The position numbers and the translations under genes were made by a program. Under the pieces are notes generated by a model. The model was not told the DNA's origin and ran no database searches. It saw nothing but the letters and a program-made list of their open reading frames with translations. Positions 2,386 through 20,300 of a stretch of DNA of 22,524 nucleotides are shown here, one piece after another; within the stretch, counting starts at the first letter, position 1, and each line of letters begins with the position of its first letter. The DNA is from a virus: positions 1 to 22,524 of the IMG/VR virus record IMGVR_UViG_3300010354_000728; one strand, given 5' to 3'.

Positions 2386-2748
2386 TTAATATCCAATAAC
2401 ACAGCGTCCCATTTCGTCCACACAATCTACACTAACGTAGTAGTCTTCATCAACATCTTCATAATCGGGATCATTAATTAATGTCAAAGGGGGAAACCAA
2501 TTAGATGCGTTTATTTGTGCGTCATTTTTTGTAGTAAAATAACAATATATATCTCCATAACTAATCAATTCGTCAAGAATTTCGTGTGGTACTTTATCCT
2601 CATAAAATTGCCAGATTTTTTTAACTTTTTCGGGATCTTGGCATTTCAATGGACCTTCGGCTTGTATTCTCATAACGATTTTTCCAGAATACTTTGCCAA
2701 GTCCTTAATAAATTCTACGGTTGGTTTAATATCTCCTTGATAAATCAT
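2386..2748 (-). CDS. hypothetical protein of the AT-rich operon (120 aa)
   Basis: The product has 120 residues, MIYQGDIKPTVEFIKDLAKY at the start, and an acidic Asp/Glu-rich segment around residues 92-103 (DPDYEDVDEDYY) followed by a short beta-like end (VSVDCVDEMGRCV). The ATG overlaps the stop of the gene before it (ATGA), and GGAGG at 2763-2759 precedes it by 10 bases, so the start is well supported and translation is coupled. Two Cys near the C-terminus (about 109 and 116) could pair, but the cytosol of an infected cell makes that unlikely. No family is recognised. It sits between the chaperone-like 339-aa gene and the 296-aa gene and shares their low GC content. Confidence 0.75.
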   Translation of the reverse strand: MIYQGDIKPTVEFIKDLAKYSGKIVMRIQAEGPLKCQDPEKVKKIWQFYEDKVPHEILDELISYGDIYCYFTTKNDAQINASNWFPPLTLINDPDYEDVDEDYYVSVDCVDEMGRCVIGY

Positions 2749-3764
2749 TTCGAATCACCCTCCGCAGATTTGTTCAATTCTTCTAAAATATCTATCACTT
2801 CTTGTGATATGCTGCTACCAGACATATTACGATAATGCGAAATAAGTGACGACACTGTTAGATCGGTTCCAATTCTTTTTAGTTGTTCATCAATTTTTTC
2901 AGAAAACTCAGAGAAATTTGCTAGGAAATCTTCATCAGTTGGTGCTTCAGAATAAAAATTATTTAAATTCATATCCAATAGTGGTAATTTCAATCGAGAT
3001 AGTGCCATAACAATATGTTGTTTTATTAAGTATTCACAATATCTATTAATAATATTATTCATTTTATCTTCAAAATTATCATCATTCTTAATAGTCTCAA
3101 TATAATTATAAACTGAATTGTCAATTTGTCCCATTTCTTTCATTATATTGTATGTAAATTGATTTTTTTCTTCTGGTGAAACGGGCAACAATACTTTATG
3201 AATTTCTCCATTTTCCCAAGCTTCTTGTTTTGTTATGTCTCTCCATTCTTGGCGATACTTAGACCATTCTATTTTTTTCTCTTCGGAAATAGGATAATCA
3301 CCAATAAAAAGATAATCGGTTTTGCTCAAAACATTTTCTCTCGTGTTCAAAACAAAATTTTGAATAATAGAATAATTTTGTATTTCGCCTAAAATTTGTT
3401 GTTGAATATCTTTTTGTCTTTCTATTTGAATAGATTCAAAATATTCTATTAAAATTTTAGTAAATTCATTTACCTTTTCTTCATCAGTCGCATCAAATAC
3501 ATATGGCACTTTTTCAAAAATTTTGGTAGCATAATTATATACGGTTTTTTCTCTTTCGCAATAGTAATTACCATCAGAAAAAGAAGTAAATAATATTAAT
3601 TTGTCATTTTCACTGTGCCAAAATTCTGGCAGCAAAGAAATAAATTCCGATATTTGATCAGTGTTCATTTCTAGTGGATGTCCTTTGTAAGTAAATATGA
3701 ATTTATTTACTACGTCTGGATGGTCCGCGTGGGGATTTAAGTATACCGTTAATACTTTGTTCAT
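2745..3764 (-). CDS. protein with a tail-fibre assembly-chaperone-like segment (339 aa)
   Basis: The 339-residue product begins MNKVLTVYLNPHADHPDVVN. Residues about 141-181 (TRENVLSKTDYLFIGDYPIS, then EWSKYRQEWRDITKQ) closely resemble the Arg-x-x-L-x-x-x-D / Pro-(I/L)-x-x-E / W-x-x-YRQ-x-(L/W)-RD pattern of phage tail-fibre or tail assembly chaperones (the Caudo_TAP/TAC type). In those families this segment ends a short protein downstream of the fibre gene and helps it fold or attach. Here it is embedded in a longer protein with about 140 extra residues before it and a helical, acidic 160-residue part after it. The ATG at 3764 follows the adhesin gene by 19 bases; only a weak GA-rich site precedes it. 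The gene order (fibre, then chaperone) supports the assignment. The pattern match is from memory of the family. Confidence 0.62.
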   Translation of the reverse strand: MNKVLTVYLNPHADHPDVVNKFIFTYKGHPLEMNTDQISEFISLLPEFWHSENDKLILFTSFSDGNYYCEREKTVYNYATKIFEKVPYVFDATDEEKVNEFTKILIEYFESIQIERQKDIQQQILGEIQNYSIIQNFVLNTRENVLSKTDYLFIGDYPISEEKKIEWSKYRQEWRDITKQEAWENGEIHKVLLPVSPEEKNQFTYNIMKEMGQIDNSVYNYIETIKNDDNFEDKMNNIINRYCEYLIKQHIVMALSRLKLPLLDMNLNNFYSEAPTDEDFLANFSEFSEKIDEQLKRIGTDLTVSSLISHYRNMSGSSISQEVIDILEELNKSAEGDSK

Positions 3765-3780: not shown

Positions 3781-3788
3781 TATTTAGA
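3781..3788 (-). promoter_or_regulatory. T4-late-promoter-like element before the 339-aa gene
   Basis: The minus strand reads TCTAAATA, seven of eight matches to the T4 late promoter core TATAAATA. It overlaps the stop codon of the 1845-aa adhesin gene and lies 17 bases before the ATG at 3764, leaving room for a leader of roughly 8-10 bases. It could give the AT-rich helper operon its own late transcript. The short motif can arise by chance in DNA this AT-rich. Confidence 0.38.
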
Positions 3789-6700
3789 AAGCTTTGATGA
3801 GATATTTTAATCTAAAATATGGCTGTTGTAAAGGAATTGCCTCATTATTCCTCATATAAAAATCAAGAGCATTATCAAAATTAGTTCTTGATCTAGAACT
3901 CATTGTCGCAGTTCCAGATGGTAATGTTATACCTAAAGTTTCACTTGTAGAAGTGGGTTCAATATGATGATTTATTGTCTCTGATAAAAATTGATTAGCA
4001 GATCCCCTAAGTACTCCCCAGTTTCCATTGTGATCTGGACTACTGACACCACCAGTAGTTGGTGACGGTGCTGTTGGTGTGCTAGATGCAATAGTGATAG
4101 AAGCTGTTCCAGCTACTCCAGAATTACTAGAACCACCAGCTGCTCCGCCAGCATATCCAGAAGTTATAATAGGAGCAGAAGAAAAGAAAGCAGAATTGTA
4201 AGCACTAGTACCACCTGAACCAGCTGGAGCATTTACGTCACCCGAAGCTTGTGGACCGCCAGCACCGCCACGGTAACCACCGCCACCGCCACCGCCGCCG
4301 CCGCCATCACCAGATCTATCTCCACCTTGCCTTCCAGATCCTGGACTACCTCCACCAGATCCATCATATGGTTTAAAAGTTAAAGTAGATTGATTTGTAT
4401 AAAATTCAGAAGAATTTATAGTGCTAGAAGCAAAACTTGTTGGAGCAGCGCCACCATTGAATCTTGGATTTGTAACTCCTCCATGGTGACCACTTCCACC
4501 ACCACCGCCGCCACCGCCTGCCATAACTAAAATTGTTCCTCTTTGAATTCCACTTGGATTGGGTCCACTACCAATCGTTTCGCAAATAATAAACGCAGTA
4601 CCACCACCGCCGCCGCCAGACCCAGAACATCCACTAGGACCAGAATTTCCTCCTCTACCTCCACCCAATCCAGTCATTTGAGATCCGCCACCAGATCCAC
4701 CAGCACCATTCGAAGCACACCCAATACCCCCGCCACCAGCGAAAGGAACTACAACGCGCATATTACTTCCGCCAGGTATATTTGTACATGTTCCAGTTAT
4801 TCTAACACCAGCGCCGCCAGATGATCCAGGGTTTCCAGCATCATTTCCACCTCCACCACCAGAACCAGAGTAAATGGAAAAATTAAAACTAGTTTGATCA
4901 GCAGGTACGGTAAAATCATAAACCCCAGGAGAAGAATAAGTAAAAACTCCACCAGAAGAAGGAGGAACAACATCAGCACCAGTTCCTTCCCCCAAAGAAG
5001 CATCGTTTGGATTGAAAGATAAAGCATGACTATGCGTTCTGCCAGGATTTCTTGTATTTGTTATAATTCCTTCGGGTCCATCACTAATGTTTCCAGAGGC
5101 AGAATCCGATCTGGTGGCCCCACAACTACCAGATCCACCATATACAGCACTATCAGCAACATATATAATCGCATTAATTCTGTGGGCGTGTGCGGGAGGA
5201 CCACTCAATGCTACTTGTCCTATGCCACTGGAATCTGATATTTGATATGATGTAGATCCCGTAAATTGTGTTTCTGCTTCGATTGTACAATTTTCCCAAC
5301 CATCAGTTCTGTGTGTTCCAACAGTAAATAAGAATGGCGATACAGTTGGAGCAGTGCCATCTGGTTGACCACTTATATTTGGATTTCCTGGTGGCAACTG
5401 ATCATATTTTTCAAAGTTATATTCTCCACCCATAGATCCAGCGAGATTTATTTGTCCACCCGAAGTCCCATCTGGAGCATACAGAGGGACAACAGACGGC
5501 GATGATCTGTTATTATCAATATTTCCAGTACCAAGTAAATACTTTCCATAAGGACAAGGCAATCTAAAAACATCAGTGCTTTGATAATTTGGATATTGTC
5601 TTGTTGCTGGAATATTTCCACCATAAGTATTTCCCAAAATTCTTGCTAAATCTGGAAAATCTTGTGCTTTCAGTAATTGTCCTCGCATTTCAATATATCC
5701 AGGAAATCTATCATTTGACCCATATGGTCTAGTGGAAGCTGATACGCCCTGAACAGGGGCGCCAGATGATAATTGACCAGTCAAAGCAATTTTCCATCTA
5801 TCAGCATCATCGGTAGTAGCAGATGGATCTTCAAGGTATCCCGCTGGTTTTGGTACACATATAACAGTTCCGATCGCTGCTCCAACTTTTTGTCTTTGGT
5901 CGTTGTAAGATTGAACAGGCAAGGCAGATGAAATTACTGAAACAGTTATTTCTGCGGTGCTGAAAGGAGAACCAGCTGGACTAATAGGCAAAGTAAGTGG
6001 AATGCTTCTATAATATTTAACTAATGTAACCTGATTAAAAGTAATATTACATCTAAATTTAGAATTTGATAAACTAAGTGGTATATTAAACAAAGATAGT
6101 ATTGGTGTTGTAACACCATCAATATTAATATTGTATAAAGATGAATTAACTCCATTTGCTAAATTAAACCACGAAGCTCCACTAGTAGTGCTTGCTTGCC
6201 ACTGATACGTTGGGAGATCCGTTCCAGTGTAAATTGGTGCTATGTCTAAGATTAATGTTGAATTTGCCGTTATGGTTTTATTGGCAGCATCCGCAAAATA
6301 GTTAAATATTCTGTTAACTGTAACTGTACATTCATTTGAATAATAAGTATTTGGATTTCCTACTGCTGTTAAACGACAGCGATAAACATCACCATTATTA
6401 GTTGTTCTTGAAGGTGCTTGTATCCTGTAATTATTAGTATTAATAGTTGTTTGACCAAATCCAACAGGAGCAAGAGAAAATGTAGAAGATCCTACGGGTT
6501 TTAATTCCCATTGATATTGTATCGCTCCAGGAACGGTATTACTTGCCACCAACGAGAGTTCTGCGCCAGCAAAATCTTCCTCTACTGTGATAGAAGTAGG
6601 AATATTTGTTGTAATATTAATGGCAACAGGAAAAACTTGTAGTCTAGCAACATTACTGAAAGAAATAATAGATCCAGCACTTATCACTTGGCATCTATAG

Positions 6701-9321
6701 TAACCAGCGTCAGCAGTTGTAACCGAAGCTATTTGATAAGTAGAAGAGTTTGCTCCAATAATACTATTCCAGGTCGCGGAAGTAGGATTGCTGGGATTAT
6801 AGTTTGTACTTTTTTGCCATTGAAATGAGGGAGTAGACAAACTAGTAGAATTGGCACTGATTGTCCACGAAACACTATTATACTCTTGTACTTGTTTATC
6901 GTTAATTGATGTAATTCCTAAAAATGTATCTGTTCTAAGAACTAATGTTCCAAAAGAACTTTCTACAGAAGATAAAGAATCTGGAACAGACACAACACAT
7001 CTATAGTATCGTTCAAGAATACTAGCACTAACTGTGGTAATCAATAACGTATCAGTGTTAATTCCAGAATATTTGGGTGCTTTGTGTATCGTAAATGGTC
7101 CAACTCCATTCCCTGTCGGTATGTTTAGCACAGTATATCTAAATTGTGTGCTTGTAAGTCCAGCAGACAAAACGATGAATGTGCCGTTATATGTTATTGG
7201 TGTAACCCCAGAAACATATATTCTAGTTCCCGCTGTTAAATTATGTGGAGTAGAACACGTAACAGTAACTGTATACTGACTAAAAGTTATAGATGTGACA
7301 TTTAATAAAGGAGAATTATCTACTATAGGAGACCAAGTTACTCCATTTACACTATATTCCCATGCATAATTTATTATTGTTCCGCTGGATGGAGATGCTG
7401 ATATCGTAAAACTAGCAATAGAATTTTCAAACGTCTCGGAATTTCCTGGATTGTTATCAATATATGCTGTTCTAAAAACAGAAATAGTACAGGGATTGGA
7501 AAAAGTAGTAACCGAATTTCCTCCACTATTATAAGTTACATACATTCTATATTTTGATAAATGATCTGTGCTTCTTCTTAATGGTGGAGTTGTAAATGTA
7601 TGTATTCCAGCAGTGCTGGGAGACGTACTTGTTGGCGGTGGTAAATTTGTCCCAAAATCATTTTTCAGGGTTCCAACATCTGTCCACCCAGTTTCACCTA
7701 CATATTGTCTTTGCCACCCCAAAGTTATTGGTCCTCTTACTCCAGTATCTATAGAAACATCAACGCCAGCATTTAGAGTTATTGTTTGTTGATTTTCTAT
7801 GAACGAAGAACGATTAGATACTGGTCCATATCTATCTTCTACAGCAGAATCATCAAATGGTCCAGAAATAATCGCAGTTTGTGTTAAATATAAAAGAGCA
7901 TCATTAGAAATTACTGCTTGTTCTCCAGATAATCCTGTTATATTTACTCTTATGTAAAGTAAATTACTACTAGATCCAGATAACAATTTAACTCTTTCTA
8001 GTTGGAGAATAGGTCCATCTGCAGTTGTTCCAGAAACCAATCTAAAGGGAGTTTCTGTTGCTTGTGGATTATTAACTAATATTGGAGAATAAAGTGGTGT
8101 ATCACTCCATCTATATTCCCAACTGTATGATATTGATGTTGTAGATGTAGTAAAAGCAGTAACACTTAAAGTAGCATTTCCACTACCAGAAACATTCGTG
8201 TTATATGATATAGTACTAGTTGTATCTGTTCCTGTTCCTGGTTGTTTACTAATAAGTATTTGAGGATTAACTAGTAAAGTTATGGAATTAGTAGTTACAG
8301 GACTATTTGAAGCAGTAGTTCCATCCTTCGAATAAGAGATTTGACATCTGTATCTTCTATTATTTTGAGAAAATGAAATACTTGAAAGAGTAAGAACAGA
8401 TTGCTTAAAATATTGAATTGGAGTAGTCGGAAAAGAAATCATCGTTTCCGTTACTGTAGCAGTAGATCCAGTAACAATATTTGTCCAAGTAGATCCTCCA
8501 TCAGTACTTTGCTGCCACTGAAACGCCATCGGCGTAACATTTGTTTGGGTGGTATTAATAAAATTAGATAAAGTACTATTTGTTGTTGCTTGAAGTGTAA
8601 ATGATAAAGTAGCACCCGTAGCAACCGTGTAAGAGGCAAGATTAAAATCAATAACATTTATTTGGGGGGGTGCTTGAACGCTCAAAGTTCTAACAAATCC
8701 CACTTCATTGCTATAAACAGTAGAATTTAAAGTAGAAGCAGCTGGAGATAAAATAATTGTCCCAACCATGTTAGTTGGATTCTCCGCTGAAATATAATAA
8801 TATGTGCCAGCAGCAAGACCTGTCGTATTCCAAACAACAGTATTATTTTGAGTTCCGTTGTTAGTCACTCCCGTAGTTACAAGACTACCAGTTCCACCCA
8901 CCGCAGATGTCTTAAGATAAAAAGTATTTCCGTTTGTAGAACTAACAGCAAATCGTAAAGTATCTCCAACTACGGCATTAATTGTTGGATTGCTACCAGT
9001 GGCAGATCCAGTAAAAGACCAAAAAGCAGATCCGTTGCCAACAACAGTATAGTTATATGTTACTGGTACATATGGAGTAAGTTCTGATATAGCAACTCTA
9101 ATTTGATCGCCATTAGCTGTAATTGGTATATTTGTAAGAGTAATACTAGAAGCACCATTATCTGGCAAATCTAACCACGTTGTTCCATTATTACTGGTTT
9201 GCCAAAGATACGATAACGTCGCTCCAGATATGTTACTGGTAGCAGCAACAGAAAAAGTTAATGATCCGCCAGCAAAAACTGTTGGTGTAGTTGGTGTAAG
9301 CGAAGAAATTGTGATGGACAT
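3784..9321 (-). CDS. giant tail adhesin: Ig-like stalk, tail-collar domain, glycine-rich tip (1845 aa)
   Basis: Probable host-recognition protein of the tail or baseplate. Residues 1-90 form an Ig-like domain (Trp40). Residues 92-196 are cupredoxin-like. Residues about 220-1120 hold a series of Ig-like domains, each marked by a Y/F-x-W near the middle and most by a later YxC (Trp269/Cys326, Trp835/Cys877, Trp938/Cys982, Trp1041/Cys1091 and others). One of them (617-796) has a foreign module inserted at about 676-748. Residues about 1140-1275 are a tail-collar domain (GTVICVPKPAGYLED, then GYIEMRGQLLKAQDFPDLA and FRLPCPYGKYLLG). HAH at 1378-1380 and HSH at 1430-1432 are the metal-binding motif type of short tail fibres. 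Residues 1458-1740 are a glycine-rich domain, followed by the C-terminal YLIKAF ending shared with the two genes before it. The ATG lies five bases after the upstream stop, with no clear ribosome site, suggesting coupling. Confidence 0.85.
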   Translation of the reverse strand: MSITISSLTPTTPTVFAGGSLTFSVAATSNISGATLSYLWQTSNNGTTWLDLPDNGASSITLTNIPITANGDQIRVAISELTPYVPVTYNYTVVGNGSAFWSFTGSATGSNPTINAVVGDTLRFAVSSTNGNTFYLKTSAVGGTGSLVTTGVTNNGTQNNTVVWNTTGLAAGTYYYISAENPTNMVGTIILSPAASTLNSTVYSNEVGFVRTLSVQAPPQINVIDFNLASYTVATGATLSFTLQATTNSTLSNFINTTQTNVTPMAFQWQQSTDGGSTWTNIVTGSTATVTETMISFPTTPIQYFKQSVLTLSSISFSQNNRRYRCQISYSKDGTTASNSPVTTNSITLLVNPQILISKQPGTGTDTTSTISYNTNVSGSGNATLSVTAFTTSTTSISYSWEYRWSDTPLYSPILVNNPQATETPFRLVSGTTADGPILQLERVKLLSGSSSNLLYIRVNITGLSGEQAVISNDALLYLTQTAIISGPFDDSAVEDRYGPVSNRSSFIENQQTITLNAGVDVSIDTGVRGPITLGWQRQYVGETGWTDVGTLKNDFGTNLPPPTSTSPSTAGIHTFTTPPLRRSTDHLSKYRMYVTYNSGGNSVTTFSNPCTISVFRTAYIDNNPGNSETFENSIASFTISASPSSGTIINYAWEYSVNGVTWSPIVDNSPLLNVTSITFSQYTVTVTCSTPHNLTAGTRIYVSGVTPITYNGTFIVLSAGLTSTQFRYTVLNIPTGNGVGPFTIHKAPKYSGINTDTLLITTVSASILERYYRCVVSVPDSLSSVESSFGTLVLRTDTFLGITSINDKQVQEYNSVSWTISANSTSLSTPSFQWQKSTNYNPSNPTSATWNSIIGANSSTYQIASVTTADAGYYRCQVISAGSIISFSNVARLQVFPVAINITTNIPTSITVEEDFAGAELSLVASNTVPGAIQYQWELKPVGSSTFSLAPVGFGQTTINTNNYRIQAPSRTTNNGDVYRCRLTAVGNPNTYYSNECTVTVNRIFNYFADAANKTITANSTLILDIAPIYTGTDLPTYQWQASTTSGASWFNLANGVNSSLYNINIDGVTTPILSLFNIPLSLSNSKFRCNITFNQVTLVKYYRSIPLTLPISPAGSPFSTAEITVSVISSALPVQSYNDQRQKVGAAIGTVICVPKPAGYLEDPSATTDDADRWKIALTGQLSSGAPVQGVSASTRPYGSNDRFPGYIEMRGQLLKAQDFPDLARILGNTYGGNIPATRQYPNYQSTDVFRLPCPYGKYLLGTGNIDNNRSSPSVVPLYAPDGTSGGQINLAGSMGGEYNFEKYDQLPPGNPNISGQPDGTAPTVSPFLFTVGTHRTDGWENCTIEAETQFTGSTSYQISDSSGIGQVALSGPPAHAHRINAIIYVADSAVYGGSGSCGATRSDSASGNISDGPEGIITNTRNPGRTHSHALSFNPNDASLGEGTGADVVPPSSGGVFTYSSPGVYDFTVPADQTSFNFSIYSGSGGGGGNDAGNPGSSGGAGVRITGTCTNIPGGSNMRVVVPFAGGGGIGCASNGAGGSGGGSQMTGLGGGRGGNSGPSGCSGSGGGGGGTAFIICETIGSGPNPSGIQRGTILVMAGGGGGGGGSGHHGGVTNPRFNGGAAPTSFASSTINSSEFYTNQSTLTFKPYDGSGGGSPGSGRQGGDRSGDGGGGGGGGGGYRGGAGGPQASGDVNAPAGSGGTSAYNSAFFSSAPIITSGYAGGAAGGSSNSGVAGTASITIASSTPTAPSPTTGGVSSPDHNGNWGVLRGSANQFLSETINHHIEPTSTSETLGITLPSGTATMSSRSRTNFDNALDFYMRNNEAIPLQQPYFRLKYLIKAF
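4117..4869 (-). repeat. glycine-rich low-complexity domain with (GGC/GGT)n runs
   Basis: This codes for residues about 1485-1735 of the 1845-aa adhesin. The segment opens with a beta-sandwich-like lead-in (PGVYDFTVPADQTSFNFSIY) and continues with runs of six to ten glycines separated by short hydrophobic strands such as MRVVVPFAGGGG and GTILVMAGGGG. That layout matches the glycine-rich domain found at phage fibre tips, where glycine runs can pack as polyglycine-II helices (as in the gp38 adhesin of T-even-like phage S16). At DNA level the longest runs (around 4277-4306, 4501-4519, 4600-4617) are near-tandem GCC/ACC triplets on the plus strand and are natural sites for slippage. Confidence 0.75.
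5497..5889 (-). other. tail-collar domain inside the 1845-aa adhesin
   Basis: Residues about 1145-1275 have the order seen in phage short-tail-fibre collar domains: a Gly-(T)-(V/I)-I strand near the start, a Gly-(Y/W)-x-x-x-x-Gly strand (GYIEMRGQ), an 'F-P-D-L-A-x-x-L-G-x-x-Y-G-G' helix-turn, and a closing 'F-R-L-P' strand. The same order occurs in the two genes upstream, at residues 18-80 and 12-100 respectively. Confidence 0.75.
7078..7296 (-). other. HNL module inserted in an Ig-like domain
   Basis: Residues about 676-748 of the 1845-aa protein form a compact beta module with the pattern T-V-T-x-x-T-P-H-N-L-x-x-G-x-x-I-x-V-x-G ... Y-N-G-x-F-x-V-L-S-A ... F-R-Y-T-V. It interrupts an Ig-like domain: before it lie the Trp strand (YAWEYSVNGVTW) and after it the expected TLLIT strand and YYRC. 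The module shares the 15-residue string VLSAGLTSTQFRYTV with a module in the giant structural protein at 19812-20025. Confidence 0.75.
8734..9048 (-). other. cupredoxin-like domain without copper ligands
   Basis: Residues about 92-196 of the 1845-aa protein follow a cupredoxin layout: GDTLRFAV strand, NTFYLKTS strand where the first copper His would be, GVTNNGTQNNTVVW, then AAGTYYYISAENPTNMVGTI. In copper-binding relatives the last stretch reads Y-x-C-x-x-H-x-x-M-x-G. Here Ser replaces Cys and Asn replaces His, while the Met-Val-Gly end is kept. The fold is probably kept without the metal site. Confidence 0.62.
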
Positions 9322-10252: not shown

Positions 10253-10260
10253 TATTTAAA
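10253..10260 (-). promoter_or_regulatory. weak T4-late-promoter-like element at a stop codon
   Basis: TTTAAATA on the minus strand matches TATAAATA at seven of eight positions and overlaps the TAA of the 363-aa gene. It lies only five bases before the ATG at 10247, so a transcript starting from it would be nearly leaderless. It may be a chance result of a TAA stop followed by ATA. Confidence 0.2.
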
Positions 10261-11347
10261 ACGTTTTGATTATAAAAATCATAGTTAATGACGGGCAAGT
10301 ACTTGTGACTGATATAGTGCCCGCATTTAATCCTGCAGAATTATCTATTAGTACATCACTGGAAACAATATCAGTATAAGTATTTGAAGCTCTAACAGAT
10401 AATCCGCTTGTAAATGTAACCGTATTTGATCCATGACTATGACCACCGATTGAGGTCCATGTTCTATAGTTAGCACTAATACTCGTATGAAAATTTTTTG
10501 TGCCTCCTATGTGAGCCAACATGTCACCACCAGAAAATCCGTCCCCAGCAAGTTCTATTGTAGCTGTCGTTCTGCCCCCACCAGCAACATAATGGTTGCC
10601 TGTAGTGTTATTTCTAAATCCCACAGTAGCTTTAGCATTACTTTCATATGTAGTATTTTGACCACACCCATTATAAGCCCAAAAATTTTCAAAATCGTCC
10701 AAAGAAACAGATCCTTGAGTGTGTGAAATTTCGCCCGTATTTTCAACGGTATGATTATGAATAGGAATATGACCATCTCCCAATTTTCTTGGCATAACAT
10801 TATATCCACGCTGAAGTAGTCCAGCAGTTAAAGCAAGTCCAGTAACAGTTGCAGTTAATCCACCAATTCCTTCGTCTCTAACACCAACTAAATCAATGGT
10901 GGAAGGTGGGGGATTGCCAGTTCCAGATCCAGAATTTCCATTATTAGATGCTCCTATTTGCGCCCAATATGGATCATCTGTTCTATTTCTAGAAGTAAGA
11001 GGAGTCCACGCAGCAGAATTTAGATTTTGCATGGGGTGATTAATGGATCCAGCGGAATATGTGGACGTTGTTGTTTTTAAAAATCCATAATGCCCAACAA
11101 AAATATCAACTATTCCCGATCCAGCAATATTTGGCAACCTAAAAGTGGACCCCACTGTACCTCCATAAGTATATCCTATGGATTCAAATAATTTAGGATA
11201 AGCAGAAACATTTAAAAAAGAACCACTACATATTCTCCATCCAATTGGTATAGTTTCTTCATTACCAGACCAAGGAATGATAGTTCCAACAGGATACCCA
11301 GAGAGTGATTTTACTTTGTTATACTTTGTTGCGTCTATGTATGGCAT
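10256..11347 (-). CDS. tail-collar / short-tail-fibre-like protein (363 aa)
   Basis: The 363-residue product starts MPYIDATKYNKVKSLSGYPV. Residues about 18-80 are a clear phage tail-collar domain: YPVGTIIPWSG, IPIGWRICSGSFLNVSAYPK, the IGYTYGG turn and TFRLPNIAG. Two His-x-His motifs follow (HNH 197-199, HSH 303-305), embedded in glycine- and threonine-rich beta sequence, and the protein ends in LTMIFIIKTF, like its two downstream neighbours. The ATG begins two bases after the last base of the giant gene's TAA (one spacer base between). The GGAGG at 11358-11354 inside the end of that gene is a strong ribosome site, so this start is well supported. Likely role: trimeric short-fibre or receptor-binding protein on the tail or baseplate. 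Confidence 0.85.
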   Translation of the reverse strand: MPYIDATKYNKVKSLSGYPVGTIIPWSGNEETIPIGWRICSGSFLNVSAYPKLFESIGYTYGGTVGSTFRLPNIAGSGIVDIFVGHYGFLKTTTSTYSAGSINHPMQNLNSAAWTPLTSRNRTDDPYWAQIGASNNGNSGSGTGNPPPSTIDLVGVRDEGIGGLTATVTGLALTAGLLQRGYNVMPRKLGDGHIPIHNHTVENTGEISHTQGSVSLDDFENFWAYNGCGQNTTYESNAKATVGFRNNTTGNHYVAGGGRTTATIELAGDGFSGGDMLAHIGGTKNFHTSISANYRTWTSIGGHSHGSNTVTFTSGLSVRASNTYTDIVSSDVLIDNSAGLNAGTISVTSTCPSLTMIFIIKTF

Positions 11348-11348
11348 T

Positions 11349-14300
11349 TTACACCTCCACTAACCACCAGCCTCTATTGTCACTTGCTATTGAAGTAGTG
11401 CCACTAGAGTCAACTTCCCCAACGTATATTAATCCAAATCCAGCATTTGGAGTATTAACAATCAATTCTCCACCTGCCCATCCACCAGTGCCACCTTGAG
11501 ATTTTTGAAGATTTACCCCCGTTTCGCATCTAATTTTTAATGGCACATTATAGTTTAAACTGCCCTGAATATCAACAAATCTCACAATATCACCAGTTAC
11601 ACAATCAGATGCTAATGGTAGATATAAAATTAATTCGTTAGTAGGTCTAACCAAATATTGAGTATTTGGTTGTAGTCTTTGTCCAGAAGCATTCAAATTA
11701 CCACTTTGAGAATCAACAAAAATTGTTCGTTTTCCGCCATTTTTGGTGTAGAAATTCTCTCTACCAAATGCCTGAATAGAACCATCCAATCTAATTCTAA
11801 ATGGTTTATCGTTGTTAATTCCTAAATTTTCAACCGAAAATACTGGAGTGATTGAAGGAGCAGTTGTACTATATGTGGCATTCAATGTTAGAGTTGCTCC
11901 AGTTGCCGCAGATGACAGTGATCTACCAATGACGGTAGTTCCCAACTGAGCATCTAATGTTATAGTATTTGTTCCACTCAATCCATTTTTAATGGTAACA
12001 TCATCGCCAGTCGTTAGTGATCCAGCAATTCTTGTATTTCCAGAAACGCCCAAAACTTCAAAAGCAATATCACTAGCAATATCTTGCCTGTTTTTATCAA
12101 ATACTCCAGAAGAGAAGAATGCGTCTTTGAAAATTTGTAAATTAGCACCATTATACAATCTAGTGTTGCCAGTGGCACTCTCAACATACAATCTAGGCGA
12201 AGAACCATTAGTAATTACAAAATATTGTTTTGCTGGTAATGATGTAGAAGTATTTCCGCTCAATTCAATAGAATTGTGTACTTTGAGATTTCCTCCACCA
12301 GTTATAATATCAACTCCAGACAAACTTGATGTGCTAGATGTTCCTCCATTATCAAAACCAATTGTAACATCTCCAAGAATCGTTGTGTCTCCGCTCGTAG
12401 TAACAACATTAAATGTTGTTAATTTGCTGGAACCAGAAGCGCCATTGTTAATGGAGAAAGTTTGAGCTTCATTTGGATTAATTGCTGTAATTGTTACAAA
12501 TTCTTCAGTAGAAGTATTTTTATCAATTCTTAAAATGTCGGTTGGTTTAAAGACTCCACTAAATTCAGCAAGATTTATTGATGTTTCTACATCCGTAACA
12601 GTAGATGGGAAAATATAAGAAGCATTTTCAGTTTTAATTAGTCTGACAATTTTTGATCCATCGGGGTGAGAAACAGCTGCCGTTCCATCAACTCCTCTCA
12701 CGACTTCTACAGTATATGGAGCAACCGAAGATGGCAAATTAACAGTTCTAACAATTTCAGTATTAATTAAGAAATATATACCAATTTGATTTATTCCTGT
12801 TGGATTATTAATTGGCAACGTTGTAAGTGTAGAACTAATTTCAGAAGCGCCGCCAGTGTCTACGAGAGTATCTTTCAATCTTATCGTTGCGCTTCCTGGA
12901 GAAGTAGATCCTAGTTGATAACCAACAACAATAGCAGATCCACCAGAAGTTGTGGAAATTGTTATACCGTTTGAATCTGCTTCTACAACAAAGTATGTTG
13001 TTGTAGTAGTAACACCCGAAAGATTTCCTACATTTGTAAATACTACAGCATTTCCAGCAACTAAAGTATTTGCCGAAATAATTAATTTTGTAGATACTGT
13101 TGGACTTGTTATTGATAGTAATCCAGTAATACTTTGTGATGAAGCAATATTAGAAATAGATTCATAGTAATCTACATTTAAATTGCTGGTGACAGCACCG
13201 TTAAATCCAGCTAATTGTCCTGGACTATGGAATTTACCAAATCCAAGTCTAATTACAGTACCAGTTGCCGATTGCGTAGCAATGTTACCAGATGATACCG
13301 TTGTATACGTGAATGTTATAGCATCAACAACCGTAAGACTAACTACTCCAATAGTTGTAAATGAACTGTTGCTACATACAATTCTTGCGGTTTGTCCTGT
13401 TGACAATCCGTGTGCTGCCGTAGTTGTAATAGTTGCTGTAGTGCCAGTTCTAGAAACTTGAGAAATTTTAATAGTTCCTAATGTGTTTCTGCTAACTCCA
13501 ACACTAGAATTTCTAAATCCTCCGTTTTGCTCAATATCACTTTCAAAAATTGCTTTGTTATTTACTTTTAATCCATTTCTAAGTAAAGTAGTACCAGCCG
13601 AACCACCAATTTCTACGTTACCAGCAGTAGGAGCAATTTTTACAGATGTTAAATTAGATGGGAATAGAGTAAACTCTTGTGTAGTCGTAGTTGCCGAAAG
13701 TTGATCTCCCTTAATTTCAAGAGTTCCATCTAAAACCGTCTGATAATTTTTTACTCTAAAAATACTTTGAGAAGGATTATTAATTGCTCCACCAAAAGTA
13801 ATCAAAGATGTTGGAAGAACGCCTGGAGTACCAGGATTTGTTACCTGTGGTACAGTGCCAATATTTACAATAGAATTGTAACTATTGTTGTGAACATTAA
13901 ATGTACCAGCAGCAGCAACACTACTACCAATATTAACTGTTTGAGATGCTGTAGCAGCATTAAACAGATTTGCTGTAGTAGCATTAGCACCAGCAGAGAA
14001 CGTTAGAGCATTTGCTTCATTTGCGATATTGAATACTGCGTTTGTTGTGGTAATATCGCCACCATTAACTTCAATATCTGACTGGAATCTAAAGTCTCCA
14101 GTAATTCTACCATTTCCAGAAACAACCAAAGTTCTATCAAGATCTGCGTTGTTTACATTAATACCAACTCTACCACCATTTGTTGTAGCAATTCTTAAAG
14201 TAGCAGCAGAAGTGAGTGGATTGGCACTATCACCACCCACAACAACTGCGTCATCTCTATTTGTTTGCGTCTTAGTTGTTCCCGTTTCAGTGAGATAAGA

Positions 14301-17300
14301 AAGAATCTTCTTACCACTGATGAAGGCTGTACCAACAACGTCAAGGTTTGCTCTTGGAGTTGTTGAAGCATCAACGAATGCTGTCTGATAAGCACTGTGA
14401 GCAGAACGAGCGACAGTGTTAATGCCAAGTTTATAATCACCAATTGTTTCTGTTTCTGTTCTAATCGCTTCGGATCCGAGAACACCAAACTCTTTGAATG
14501 CTGCTTTCGATTTCTCGATTACAATATTTGGTTGTGCTACCGCATCAACTGGGTATCCATTATTTGGAAGAGGAATAGCAGTGTAAAGAGGAAGGTTATT
14601 ATTGACAATAATATTAACAAAATTATTGGTAGGAACAAATGGCGTACCAACAGAACTATAAACAGGCCACACGCCATTAAGCGGAGCAAGAGCACCAGTA
14701 GCACCAGTAATACGAATTTGTGAAGAAGAAGAAATTTGTAATGATGTATTTGTAATACCAACATTCCACGTTAATCTAACAATAGTACCAGAAGCAGCAC
14801 CCTGTATACCAATTACTTGAGCATTAAATCCACCACCAGAACGATTCTCAATACGAATGTAATCATTAGCATAGATCCATCCAAGAGATCCAGTGAATAA
14901 AGTTTGATTGCCCTTTAATTGAATCAAACCTGATGCTAGAGGGAATTTGGTGCCAAAATCAGTATTTTGTAACTGAGAAGGACCATTGGTAGTTAATCCA
15001 AATGTATTAGCAAGATCAGGCGTTCTATTGGATAGAGCCGTCATAATTTGATAATCTTGTAATCCTCTTGGATTTAAATCAACAACTGTTGTTTGTAGTC
15101 TTCCTTGATGTAGAATAATATCACCCGTTTTCTGCTGTGCGATATTTACTTCAAGATATGGGTCATAACCAACGACAACTCCCTCCCCTGTTACAATCTT
15201 AAGTGATGGGAAGTTTTCTACAGATCCAAACGCTGTAGTGTTATTGATTACGATAGGAGCATTGAAGAAACTTTCTGCTTTTCCTTCGGATCCATTAACT
15301 GTAATAATCTCATTAAATGTTACAGCGGTATCAAATGTTGTTACTAGTCCGCCAATTACATCAGCTTCATCTGTAGACTCTACAAGCTTAGCAGACTCTA
15401 GGAATGTTTCTTCGCCAGTGATAGCGTTGATCTTTCTGTTGCCGATGTAAAGATCGCCATTAGAGTTTAGACCAGTGTAGAAGACGATACCAGCGTCTTG
15501 TTTCTTCGCTTGAGCGTAGAAGTCCTGAACATCAGTAAGAATGATTTCCTGTCTTGCTGGGAAACCAGTTGAGTAGTTACCAGGACCGAAACCAAGATAT
15601 TCAAACGTGTGGTTACCAGAACGAGCGATAGATGGTCTACGAAGTTCTACATAAAGTTTTCCTTCTGTTGGATACTGAGAAGTTCCATTGATAGGAATTC
15701 TTCTTCCTTCCGAACCAGCAGAAGCTGTACCAGACTGTGCCTGGATGGTAGATGTACCATTAAATGTGTACCCACCAGTTCCTGGATCTTGAACAAAATC
15801 AAGAACCATCTCTTTGGTCAAGCTATTCTTAGCATCGTTTACAGTTACCAGACCATGAATGTAGTTGTCTGCGGTAGATACTGTTGGAGGTGGATCGGAA
15901 AGCGTAGTAGTAGTTAAATCTACGCCCTTATACCATTCTGGATCGTTCTTATAGAACTCTGGATACAACTTAGAAATTGGTTGTGAGAACTTAAAGTTTC
16001 TGAAGTTTTCGCCAACACCCGAACCAGTTGGATATGGAGAAATATTACCTCTCACGCAAGTTAAGTAGTATACACCATCTTGCTGACCAGGGATTCTTCT
16101 ACGAATAGTATTAACATCAAAGATGTAGAAAGTATTTTCCATGTCAGGAACATCTTCTACACTAGCGATGGTGTAAGAAACGCCATTGTCATCGTTTACT
16201 CTATCACCAGGAGTTAATGTGTAGACGTTTGCGCCTTCCACGACATATGGATACTTAGTAATATCTGATCTTCCATCATTTGGTTCACTTATGAGAGTAG
16301 CGGTTACAGAACCTTGTGTAAAGACAGTAGGAGTTGTGCTACTGTAATCAATGTTGGAATTGCCAGTTAAATCTTTAAGGATCATGTAGTAGTTATTTTC
16401 ATAAGCAAAATAACCATGTACATAACCACTACCAGAACAATTACCAGACCAAGAAATTAAATTAGTGCTGTTTGAATTAGGAATACTTGAAACAAAGACT
16501 CCATTACCACCTTCTGGAGAAGTAATTTTTACTGTGGTAAAGAGTTTTGTTTTGTATGCTTCAGCATCAATTCCGACATCAAAAACTGTTAATTGTAAAT
16601 AATTTTTGTTATTTAACGAAACCTTTCTAGCTGACTGAATAGTAAATGCTACCTTTGAAGTAGTCTCAAGTCTCTTTGGATTACCAAACGCAGAAGGATC
16701 GTATGTAGATACAAAGTTTGGATTTAGTACAAGTTGCTCGGCAGTTGTAAGTCCTAGTCTTTCCCCTGTCACTGGCGCAAGTAGAGTTGCTGTATCAGCA
16801 CCAGTTGATGTTGGCTTGAGAAGAATTTTTTGTGGTAACAATCTTCTCTTTTCGTCTGTACGAATTTTAAATACAAATCCTCTAATTGGATCACGAACTG
16901 TCTTAAGATTCTTAGGAATGACATAACGTAGACGATATACTCTATCTTCTTTAGTTCTGTTATCCTCAATTCTTTCAAAATATGAATCAGTAGTTCTCAG
17001 TCTACCAGCATAATCAGACAACTTTATTCTAGGAATGATCGTGTTGCCAGCAGATAGAGTTTCTAGATACCAGCATCCATCAGTAGCAGCTGTACCAATT
17101 TTAGGATCATATCTTAGAGGAGATCTACGCTTGTTACAGAAAGTATAGAATACTGCTGTGCTTCCTGGTTGGAAAGAAATAGGAGCGATGTTATCACGAG
17201 CATTCGCAAAGGTTTCGTGAATAGTAAATCTTCTAGCGTTTACATAACGTACATAGTAAAGGTTTTTACCAGAAATAGTTGTTCCACCGAACTGAGACGA

Positions 17301-20300
17301 TAAAGTTGGTAAAGAAGATCCAGTGATATCAGAACCAACACGGAAGAATACTAATTGTGGTTCTACGTTTGTTGATGGTTTATCAAAAGCATGTGGTCTA
17401 TCAGTTTCAAGAATTGTACTGGAACCAGCAGCGATTTTAGTTTGATATTGATGTAAATCGTAGTTAACATCAAGAACATACTGATATACATCAATTTCTA
17501 CGTTGGCATCAATACCATCTGTTTCAGATGAGTAGATATAGATACCAGCAGCAGCATTTTCTTCGCTGGTTGCTAGTAATAAATTTTGTTGATTAGATCC
17601 ATTAAATGAACCAATTGTGGAATAATTAAATGGATCAGTGATTCTACCAGGAGCAATAGCATAGTATACGGTATTGGTATCAAATCCTTTTGGCAGACGA
17701 ATTAATCGTTTGTCTACATTAACTCCAGACTTTGCTCTTGGAACAAGTCTAACGGGAGTTCCTGTCTCTAACTGGTGTGGGTTGGATGTTGGCAATCCAG
17801 TGCTATCGGACTCAGTTAAAGTAAATAAAGTTGCTCTCTGTGCTAAAGCACCTGTGTTAATAGAAGAAGCAACTCTAGGAACAGTTCCAACACCACTATT
17901 AATGATAGTAGATAGAATTTGATAGAAATTAACAATCGTGCTTGCTGTAGAAGCGCATTCTCCACCAGGAGCGCCAGTAGCAATATCACCTGGAGTTAAG
18001 TAGTTGTAATCTTGAATTACACTAGAGTCAGTGGATGGTGTTAGTGTATTTGTCCAAACTCCCTGCGTAAATTCAACATAAAGATTAACATTTGTCGCAG
18101 TAGCAGTAGCATTTACTGTAGAACCAAAATTTAACTTACTACCCTGTGTTCCAAGTTGAATTTGATTTGATGCCAATCCATTAACACCATCACCAATTTT
18201 TTTGATATATGCGGTTGATGGAATTGTCGTTGTATATGCTATTGTGCTGCTAGAAGAAGTTGGAATAGCATTAACGCTACGAACTCTCATGCCAACAACA
18301 AGACCAACTGTACTGTTGACGGTAACAATTGATGATCCAGATGTTGTGCTTGCGTTTGGAAGATAAGTATTGTGATTTCTCATTGAAGAAATCGCCAAAT
18401 CTCTCACATAACGATAAGCGTCTAGGGTCTCTAATTTTTCATTTTCAATATAATCTAAATTGTTGCCAGTATAGTATGATTCTGCGGCATTAATTGTATT
18501 GATGTTTCCACCCAATCTTAGGTCAGAAGTAATAGCTTCTACAATGTACCCAATATCACGCTTACACTTACTCGATTCGCTAACTTGTGACCAAGGACCA
18601 GGATTTCTGACTGGTAAATTGTTAAGATTGCCAGCAAGTAGAGTGCTAGTGATGATGTTTGTTAAAGTATCAATTGTCTGTCTTACGTTGGCGCAATCCC
18701 AATCGCCATTATCTACTGCTGGAAGACCAGAAATACTACCAGCATTGACAACACTGGTGACAATTGAGAACAGAGAATCTACTGCTGATTGTACATCAGT
18801 ACAAGTAGCACCGTTGCCAGAAGCTGTATAAGTAATATTTCCACCAGAACCACCAGCAGTTGCTGGACCTACAGATAAAGCAAGATTCTTTGTATAAAGT
18901 TGATTTGTTAAAGCTCTCTTACACCAATCTCTTGCTTTGTTAAAAGCAACAACAGATTCCGCCGATTCACCAACTAATCCATTGGAAATTGGTGTACCTG
19001 CCTGCGTGAAATACTCTCTAACAGCGCCAACAGTGAACTCGTTTCCACCCCAGAAGAGATCTTGTGCGATAGAGTCAACGATATAACCGATATCACGCTT
19101 ACATTTAGTTTCTCCAGCTGGAATAACAGTAGAAACTTGTTCAGCAACAAGATTTGTAATGTTTCCTGCGCTTAAATTGGAAGTAACAATAAAAGTAAGA
19201 CTGTCAATTGCTAATCTTACGTCAGCACACGAATTAGGACTTGTGTTTGGAATGTTACCACCAGTTCCGCTATAGTTTGCTGGTCCAGAAGTAACAGTAG
19301 TATCTTTGATTGTTAATTGATTGGTCAACGCAGACTTCATTAAGTTACGAGCCGCGATGAAAGCAGCATTTGATTGATCAATTTCTCCTGCTAATCCATT
19401 TGGAAGCAGTGTGGTAGCATTAGTAAAATATTGTTGAAGGAATTTACGTGTATATACGTTGCCAGCACCCTGAGAAATATCTAGAGAAACAGCATCAATA
19501 AAGAATTCAATATCACGCTTACACTTAACTGGATCTGGATTTGTGAAACTAGGATACTGAATCGCAATTTCTGCGTATGCTCCATCAATAATTTCTTGTT
19601 TATTTTGCTGAATTAGACGATAAGCATCTTTGTAACGAGAGATTGATGTTGTTTGAGGATCTCCAGGATAATAGAAATCGGGGAACTGAACAGCAATTTC
19701 AGCAGCTGCTTTATCAATAATTTCTTGACGGTTAGCAGTAATTAGTTTGCTGCCATCTTTAAATCTGCCAACATTTGCGTCATCATTTACTGGGTCAATC
19801 GTAATTGTGGAGACGTAAATAGCACCAGTGGCATTTGTTACGCCAGGAGCTGTTGGTACAGTATATCTAAACTGAGTACTTGTCAATCCAGCAGAAAGAA
19901 CTTGAAACTTTCCATTAAATGCTGTTTGTGTAGCACCACCAACAGTTACAGATTGATTTGGTTGTAGATTATGTGGTGTAAGAGTTGTTACGGTAATTGT
20001 AGTACCAGAAGCAGCAAGTGTTGGAGAATTGAGAAGCGATGTATTTGTCAATAAGTTTGAAATCGCTTTCTTGGACCAATCTTTTGCTCTGTTAAACGCA
20101 AAAATAGACTGTGTTTCTTCACCAGCAAGACCATTTGTAATTGGTGTACCTGTTGATGTGAAGTATGCCTTTGTGGCATCAATCATGTTTGAGTTACCAC
20201 CAGTGTATAAGTCATTAGCAATAGCATCTACAATAAAACCAATATCACGCTTACACTTTTCGTTCGCATTAGCTCCACCAGGAACAGTAAACGCTGGGAA

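Follow-up and report, generated by a model that had tools for sequence, protein, structure and literature searches.

T4 gp12 combines a collar domain with a pair of His-x-His (HxH) motifs, as the collar proteins studied here do, and to our knowledge it has no glycine-rich domain. Its His445 and His447 bind metal on the threefold axis (PMC3004832). Glycine-rich recognition domains are described on other phage fibres: S16 gp38 (PMC9608196), a separate protein at the tip of the long fibre, also has a beta-helix domain, and in the cyanophage Pam3 a TNF-like plus glycine-rich domain forms the distal end of gp24, a short three-domain fibre with a phage-encoded assembly chaperone (PDB 7YPX and 7YFW; PMC9608196). 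The glycine-rich domain of Pam3 gp24 folds with this chaperone and is the proposed receptor binder (PMC9608196). In S-PM2, genes of the fibre cassette acquire mutations while phage and host coexist (PMC9910659).

We analysed a 22.5-kb virus record (the window, whose own copy of the gene is called W; L-numbers are related IMG/VR contigs), which comes from a Kyanoviridae-like phage. P0001, a collar protein of 1845 residues, carries a module between its second HxH and its C-terminus. We read this module, at a probability of about 0.7, as a host-binding TNF-like plus glycine-rich domain inserted in a gp12-like collar protein. Its gene is laid out as follows.

3784..9321, minus strand: P0001, the 1845-aa collar protein, with Ig-like stretches, collar domain, two HxH, glycine-rich module and C-terminal ending
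5578..5730, minus strand: phage tail collar domain, residues 1198-1248 (PF07484, 33.1 bits, cut-off 24)
5182..5190, minus strand: first HxH, HAH at residues 1378-1380
5035..5181, minus strand: stretch between the two HxH, residues 1381-1429, whose equivalent is a divergence hot spot in the sister phages L008 and L009
5026..5034, minus strand: second HxH, HSH at residues 1430-1432
4054..4965, minus strand: inserted module, residues 1453-1756, a TNF-like beta-sandwich with a glycine-rich part, as predicted by AlphaFold and matched by VIA-align, and absent from syntenic orthologues
4309..4491, minus strand: 61-residue loop, residues 1611-1671, between the two longest glycine runs
3784..4053, minus strand: C-terminal part of the collar head, residues 1757-1845 and stop, common to the insert-free orthologues

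P0001 closes a series of four fibre genes, a giant fibre and three collar proteins, and the order of the cassette (giant fibre, gp12, structural protein, second gp12-like protein) matches that of S-MbCM7, S-H9-1, S-WAM2, S-RSM4 and related contigs. The neighbouring genes are listed here.

11349..22523, minus strand: P0007, giant fibre protein that opens the cassette, continuing beyond the window
10256..11347, minus strand: P0006, gp12-like collar protein without insert, neighbour of P0001
9327..10247, minus strand: P0005, collar protein without insert, neighbour of P0001, its start set at an internal ATG
2745..3764, minus strand: P0002, 339 aa, the gene after P0001, phage tail assembly chaperone (PF16778, 41.3 bits, cut-off 26.6)

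The collar domain of P0006 matches T4 gp12 (1OCY, E 0.012), and P0001, after its two HxH, ends in a hydrophobic ...KYLIKAF-type sequence as the gp12-like collar proteins of such cassettes do. P0002 is likely a folding helper of the fibre, and its adjacency to P0001 is conserved with or without the module. Separately, the alignment of P0002 with the chaperones of other module carriers covers its full length; with the chaperones of insert-free relatives it extends over only ~260 residues, and the C-terminal part of these chaperones differs. Near the N-terminus of P0001, residues ~85-195 match phrog_9158 and, by eye only, look cupredoxin-like.

The preliminary description of this DNA had noted that the ending of P0001 lies far from the second HxH, and we found 413 residues after that motif, compared with 58 in P0006 and 56 in P0005. 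The interval that it had marked as glycine-rich, 4117-4869, corresponds to residues 1485-1735 and is 36% glycine (90/251). This content is not due to chance, since the richest 251-residue window of P0001 ahead of the module holds 35 glycines. The marked interval lies inside the module and is shorter than the folded unit, which spans residues 1453-1756 (4054-4965), that is, 304 residues with 31% glycine.

We searched for orthologues in the same gene order by scans of IMG/VR. In W, L002 (the same as L004), L003, L008, L009, L010 and L011, about 412-438 residues separate the second HxH from the end, and the sequence of L012 ends inside the module. In L013, L014, L015, L023-L029 and L031, 67-102 residues follow the second HxH, and the module is absent; these insert-free syntenic fourth genes run directly into the same ...FYLRNNE...YFRLKYMIKAF-type ending. 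Hence, the stretch is an insert relative to syntenic orthologues, and not merely relative to the two neighbouring genes from which it had first been described as one.

In a tree built on the collar part with the insert excluded, the eight module carriers form one clade (support 100/99) nested among insert-free relatives, so a single gain of the module would be the simplest history, with repeated losses as the alternative. In another region of the tree, L037, L039 and the cultured cyanophages S-WAM2 and S-RSM4 have other glycine-rich inserts at the same site, and L041 has a glycine-poor one. S-RSM4 gp211 and S-WAM2 P29B0810_030 are also the fourth genes of their cassettes, with ~900 residues from the second HxH to the C-terminus, glycine-rich parts included. 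Their inserts, longer than that of P0001 and composite, probably have a separate origin from the module of the window, judging from the collar sequences, because they fall in another collar clade; the grouping of S-RSM4 with S-WAM2/L039 and the finer order there are unsafe, as long branches meet. We also noted by eye a recurring glycine-poor domain with a YD-x-(Y/F)GI-like motif as another insert in L041, L033 and L039; in L041 it follows the second HxH, and in L033 it is flanked by the two motifs. A foreign origin of the module by composition was rejected, as its third-position GC is 0.17 relative to 0.18 in the rest of the gene. Glycine codon choice differs between module and rest, which proves nothing on foreign origin.

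We modelled residues 1453-1756 alone as a monomer with AlphaFold, using 14 sequences in the alignment, and obtained a confident fold (pLDDT 84.6, pTM 0.86). Hence, the glycine-rich part is predicted to be folded rather than disordered. When the whole C-terminal part was folded as a monomer, the collar head had pLDDT below 50. In Foldseek, the animal receptors ALK/LTK rank first (E 2.4e-8), followed by the Bxb1 tail tip and the Pam3 fibre. With VIA-align, the TNF-like plus glycine-rich domain of vertebrate ALK/LTK scores Z 14-15.5 over ~205 residues, an invertebrate ALK homologue Z 12.6, the mycobacteriophage Bxb1 tail tip Z 11.9 and the Pam3 fibre Z 11.8 (rmsd 2.5 over 159 residues); the next row after Pam3 drops to Z 2.9. 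The matches to ALK/LTK and Pam3 cover 158-213 residues and span the whole of the predicted module.

A sequence profile of the 14 modules against PDB chains ranks the ALK homologue scd-2 first (E 2.3e-5), with LTK at 0.006, so that ALK/LTK is the best match in both predicted structure and sequence profile. The Pfam family Gly_rich_2 (PF21722, cut-off 24.3 bits) scores 32.2 in L010, 26.5 in L008 and 40.6 in L037, and the inserts of L008 and L010 are orthologous to the module of the window. For the window's own copy, no Gly_rich_2 candidate appeared in a loose first look or by hmmscan, and that copy carries no score. ALK_LTK_GRD (PF12810, cut-off 24.5 bits) gave no candidates in 7 phage records, and nothing was scored. 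Against predicted structures of viruses, virion proteins of ACG-2014i and ACG-2014j lead the named matches, and the short tail fibre of S-RSM4 and an S-WAM2 collar protein follow lower down. Hence, on the predicted model, in which glycine-rich stretches interrupt the strands of a beta-sandwich base, the module appears to be a self-contained TNF-like plus glycine-rich domain with the fold seen in ALK/LTK and the Pam3 fibre.

ALK and LTK are receptors of the animal cell surface, and the match does not imply a function in common with the phage module. Relative to Pam3, where the domain is terminal, that of P0001 is inserted internally, within a gp12-like collar head; it is also larger and has the 61-residue loop between its two longest glycine runs. 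S16 gp38, which had been proposed as the comparison, is a similar case of a glycine-rich domain on a phage fibre, but neither Foldseek nor VIA-align lists it among the matches, and the P0001 module lies within an 1845-aa reading frame rather than in a protein of its own.

We then asked where else the module occurs. A tblastn search with the glycine-rich part against phages gave no matches, probably because the low-complexity filter masks the query, and an alignment-based scan of viral contigs gave 599 pattern matches and no confirmed relative. With a DNA pattern on the GCSG core, we located the same module inside a 1789-aa virion protein of ACG-2014e and relatives, which lacks HxH, and at the N-terminus of proteins of 576 to 728 aa. 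In ACG-2014e Syn7803C85_32 (AIX20495.1) and its relatives, the homologous module has a GCSG[GS]GGGGGG core and, unlike in P0001, is internal to a virion protein without HxH. Among the ACG-2014e relatives, the module is internal or at the protein start and not a C-terminal tip, which counts against reading it as a tip adhesin. Cysteines 83 and 113 of the module (residues 1535 and 1565 in the window) are invariant in 14/14 modules from different proteins, a possible disulfide or metal site, and the positions of the glycine runs are conserved across the same 14 sequences.

Between species, the module is about 70% identical for W and L002 and 56% for W and L008, near the values of the Ig-like part (66-76% and 66-67%, respectively); the collar domain exceeds the module in the same comparisons. 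Within the module, glycine positions differ at 0.09 and other positions at 0.55, relative to 0.44-0.47 in the Ig-like part. This overall conservation, about equal to that of the rest of the protein, counts against the host-binding reading.

Between closely related phages, L002 and L004 show no difference over 13.7 kb and so are uninformative on variability, and the comparison of L008 with L009 covered 8.1 kb at 97% identity. In the latter pair, 22 changes within the module are nonsynonymous and 0 are synonymous, for which p is ~0.001 if all are independent and neutral and ~0.04 if they are counted as 11 events; some adjacent changes are probably single events. The equivalent of the 61-residue loop holds 11 of the 17 differing positions of the module (event-level p ~0.01), and the first half of the module has 0 differences. 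The module is not unique in its excess of amino-acid changes, since the whole gene has 81 of these to 11 synonymous changes (ratio 2.4), and the selection signal comes from one pair of metagenome contigs, which is thin evidence. Adenine-directed substitutions, as expected in the target of a diversity-generating retroelement, were not seen in L008/L009, where every base is affected and changes run both ways.

The same pair has hot spots in all three collar proteins (L008 positions 1063-1216, 2138-2246 and 6580-6763). In the third protein the hot spot lies between the two HxH; in the first two it precedes the second HxH. The hot spot between the two HxH has 19.2 nonsynonymous and 6.8 synonymous changes. 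From the sequence comparison, these hot spots look like allele exchange or strong selection, and the variable patch between the two HxH may matter as much as the module. Hence, the highly evolvable surface put forward in the preliminary description is borne out in part: within L008/L009 the module changes gather in one loop, but a hot spot of equal or greater strength lies between the two HxH, and across species the module and the remainder of the protein are conserved to about the same degree.

Synonymous changes in the hot spot between the two HxH are what an imported allele would bring, and the module recurs in several unrelated proteins; both would fit variable stretches that arise mainly from recombination with divergent alleles rather than from selection on point changes, with the module carried as a cassette. 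We consider this doubtful as the main source of variation, and the module differences of L008/L009 lack synonymous changes, unlike an imported allele. It concerns the mode of variation and can be held together with the host-binding reading.

Rather less probable is that the module is a structural spacer or a sticky coat, which strengthens or lengthens the fibre or adheres weakly and nonspecifically, with host choice left to the stretch between the two HxH. Such a role would suit the hot spots that precede the second HxH in 3/3 collar proteins, two of them without the module, as well as the same module inside virion proteins that are not collar proteins and its overall conservation, equal to that of the rest of the protein. 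It is at odds with the L008/L009 module differences, all of them amino-acid-changing and gathered in one loop, and with the ties of the related Pam3 and ALK/LTK domains to recognition. A disordered glycine stretch grown by repeat slippage, hinted at by short CCG/CCACCG-type repeats at 4255-4311, is rejected as extremely improbable given the confident fold, the glycine-run and cysteine positions conserved over 14 sequences from different proteins, and only four weak repeat rows.

Under the host-binding reading, and by analogy with gp12, the collar head, HxH motifs and C-terminal end would form a trimeric socket. The module would sit on this socket as a compact beta-sandwich with its glycine-rich stretches projecting, and the loops between these stretches would face the host surface and bind the receptor, probably after the baseplate has opened. 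The chaperone encoded by the next gene would assist folding. The analogies with Pam3 gp24 and gp12 make it probable that the module is on a trimeric head with its loops toward the host; we infer trimer, tip position, receptor binding and chaperone use from such likenesses, and the S-PM2 cassette mutations fit a role in adsorption.

The preliminary description had called the insert an adhesin-type domain that turns a short fibre into an adhesin. The first part stands in that the domain belongs to a type that serves binding in other phages and shows signs of diversifying change, and needs correction in that ALK/LTK and Pam3, rather than S16 gp38, are the best structural relatives among the matches listed. 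The second is unproven, and the insert-free orthologues are gp12-like and probably bind hosts already; hence, it is more likely that the module adds or replaces a binding surface than that it converts the fibre to an adhesin.

We searched the open literature and found no paper describing the slot, although one may still exist. Tentatively, and at somewhat less than even odds, the region from the second HxH to the C-terminal end of the fourth-gene collar protein may be a general plug-in socket of Kyanoviridae-like phages, in which ALK-like modules and unrelated domains have been inserted repeatedly, with modules common to other virion proteins and the fast-changing loop as the host-contact patch. 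The finding points to a precise slot of the fibre at which whole putative binding domains would be exchanged, and it connects uncultured phages with a domain whose structure has been solved in ALK/LTK and Pam3. Since the cultured relatives S-RSM4, S-WAM2 and ACG-2014e carry similar modules, the host-choosing part of the cyanophage-type fibre becomes testable.
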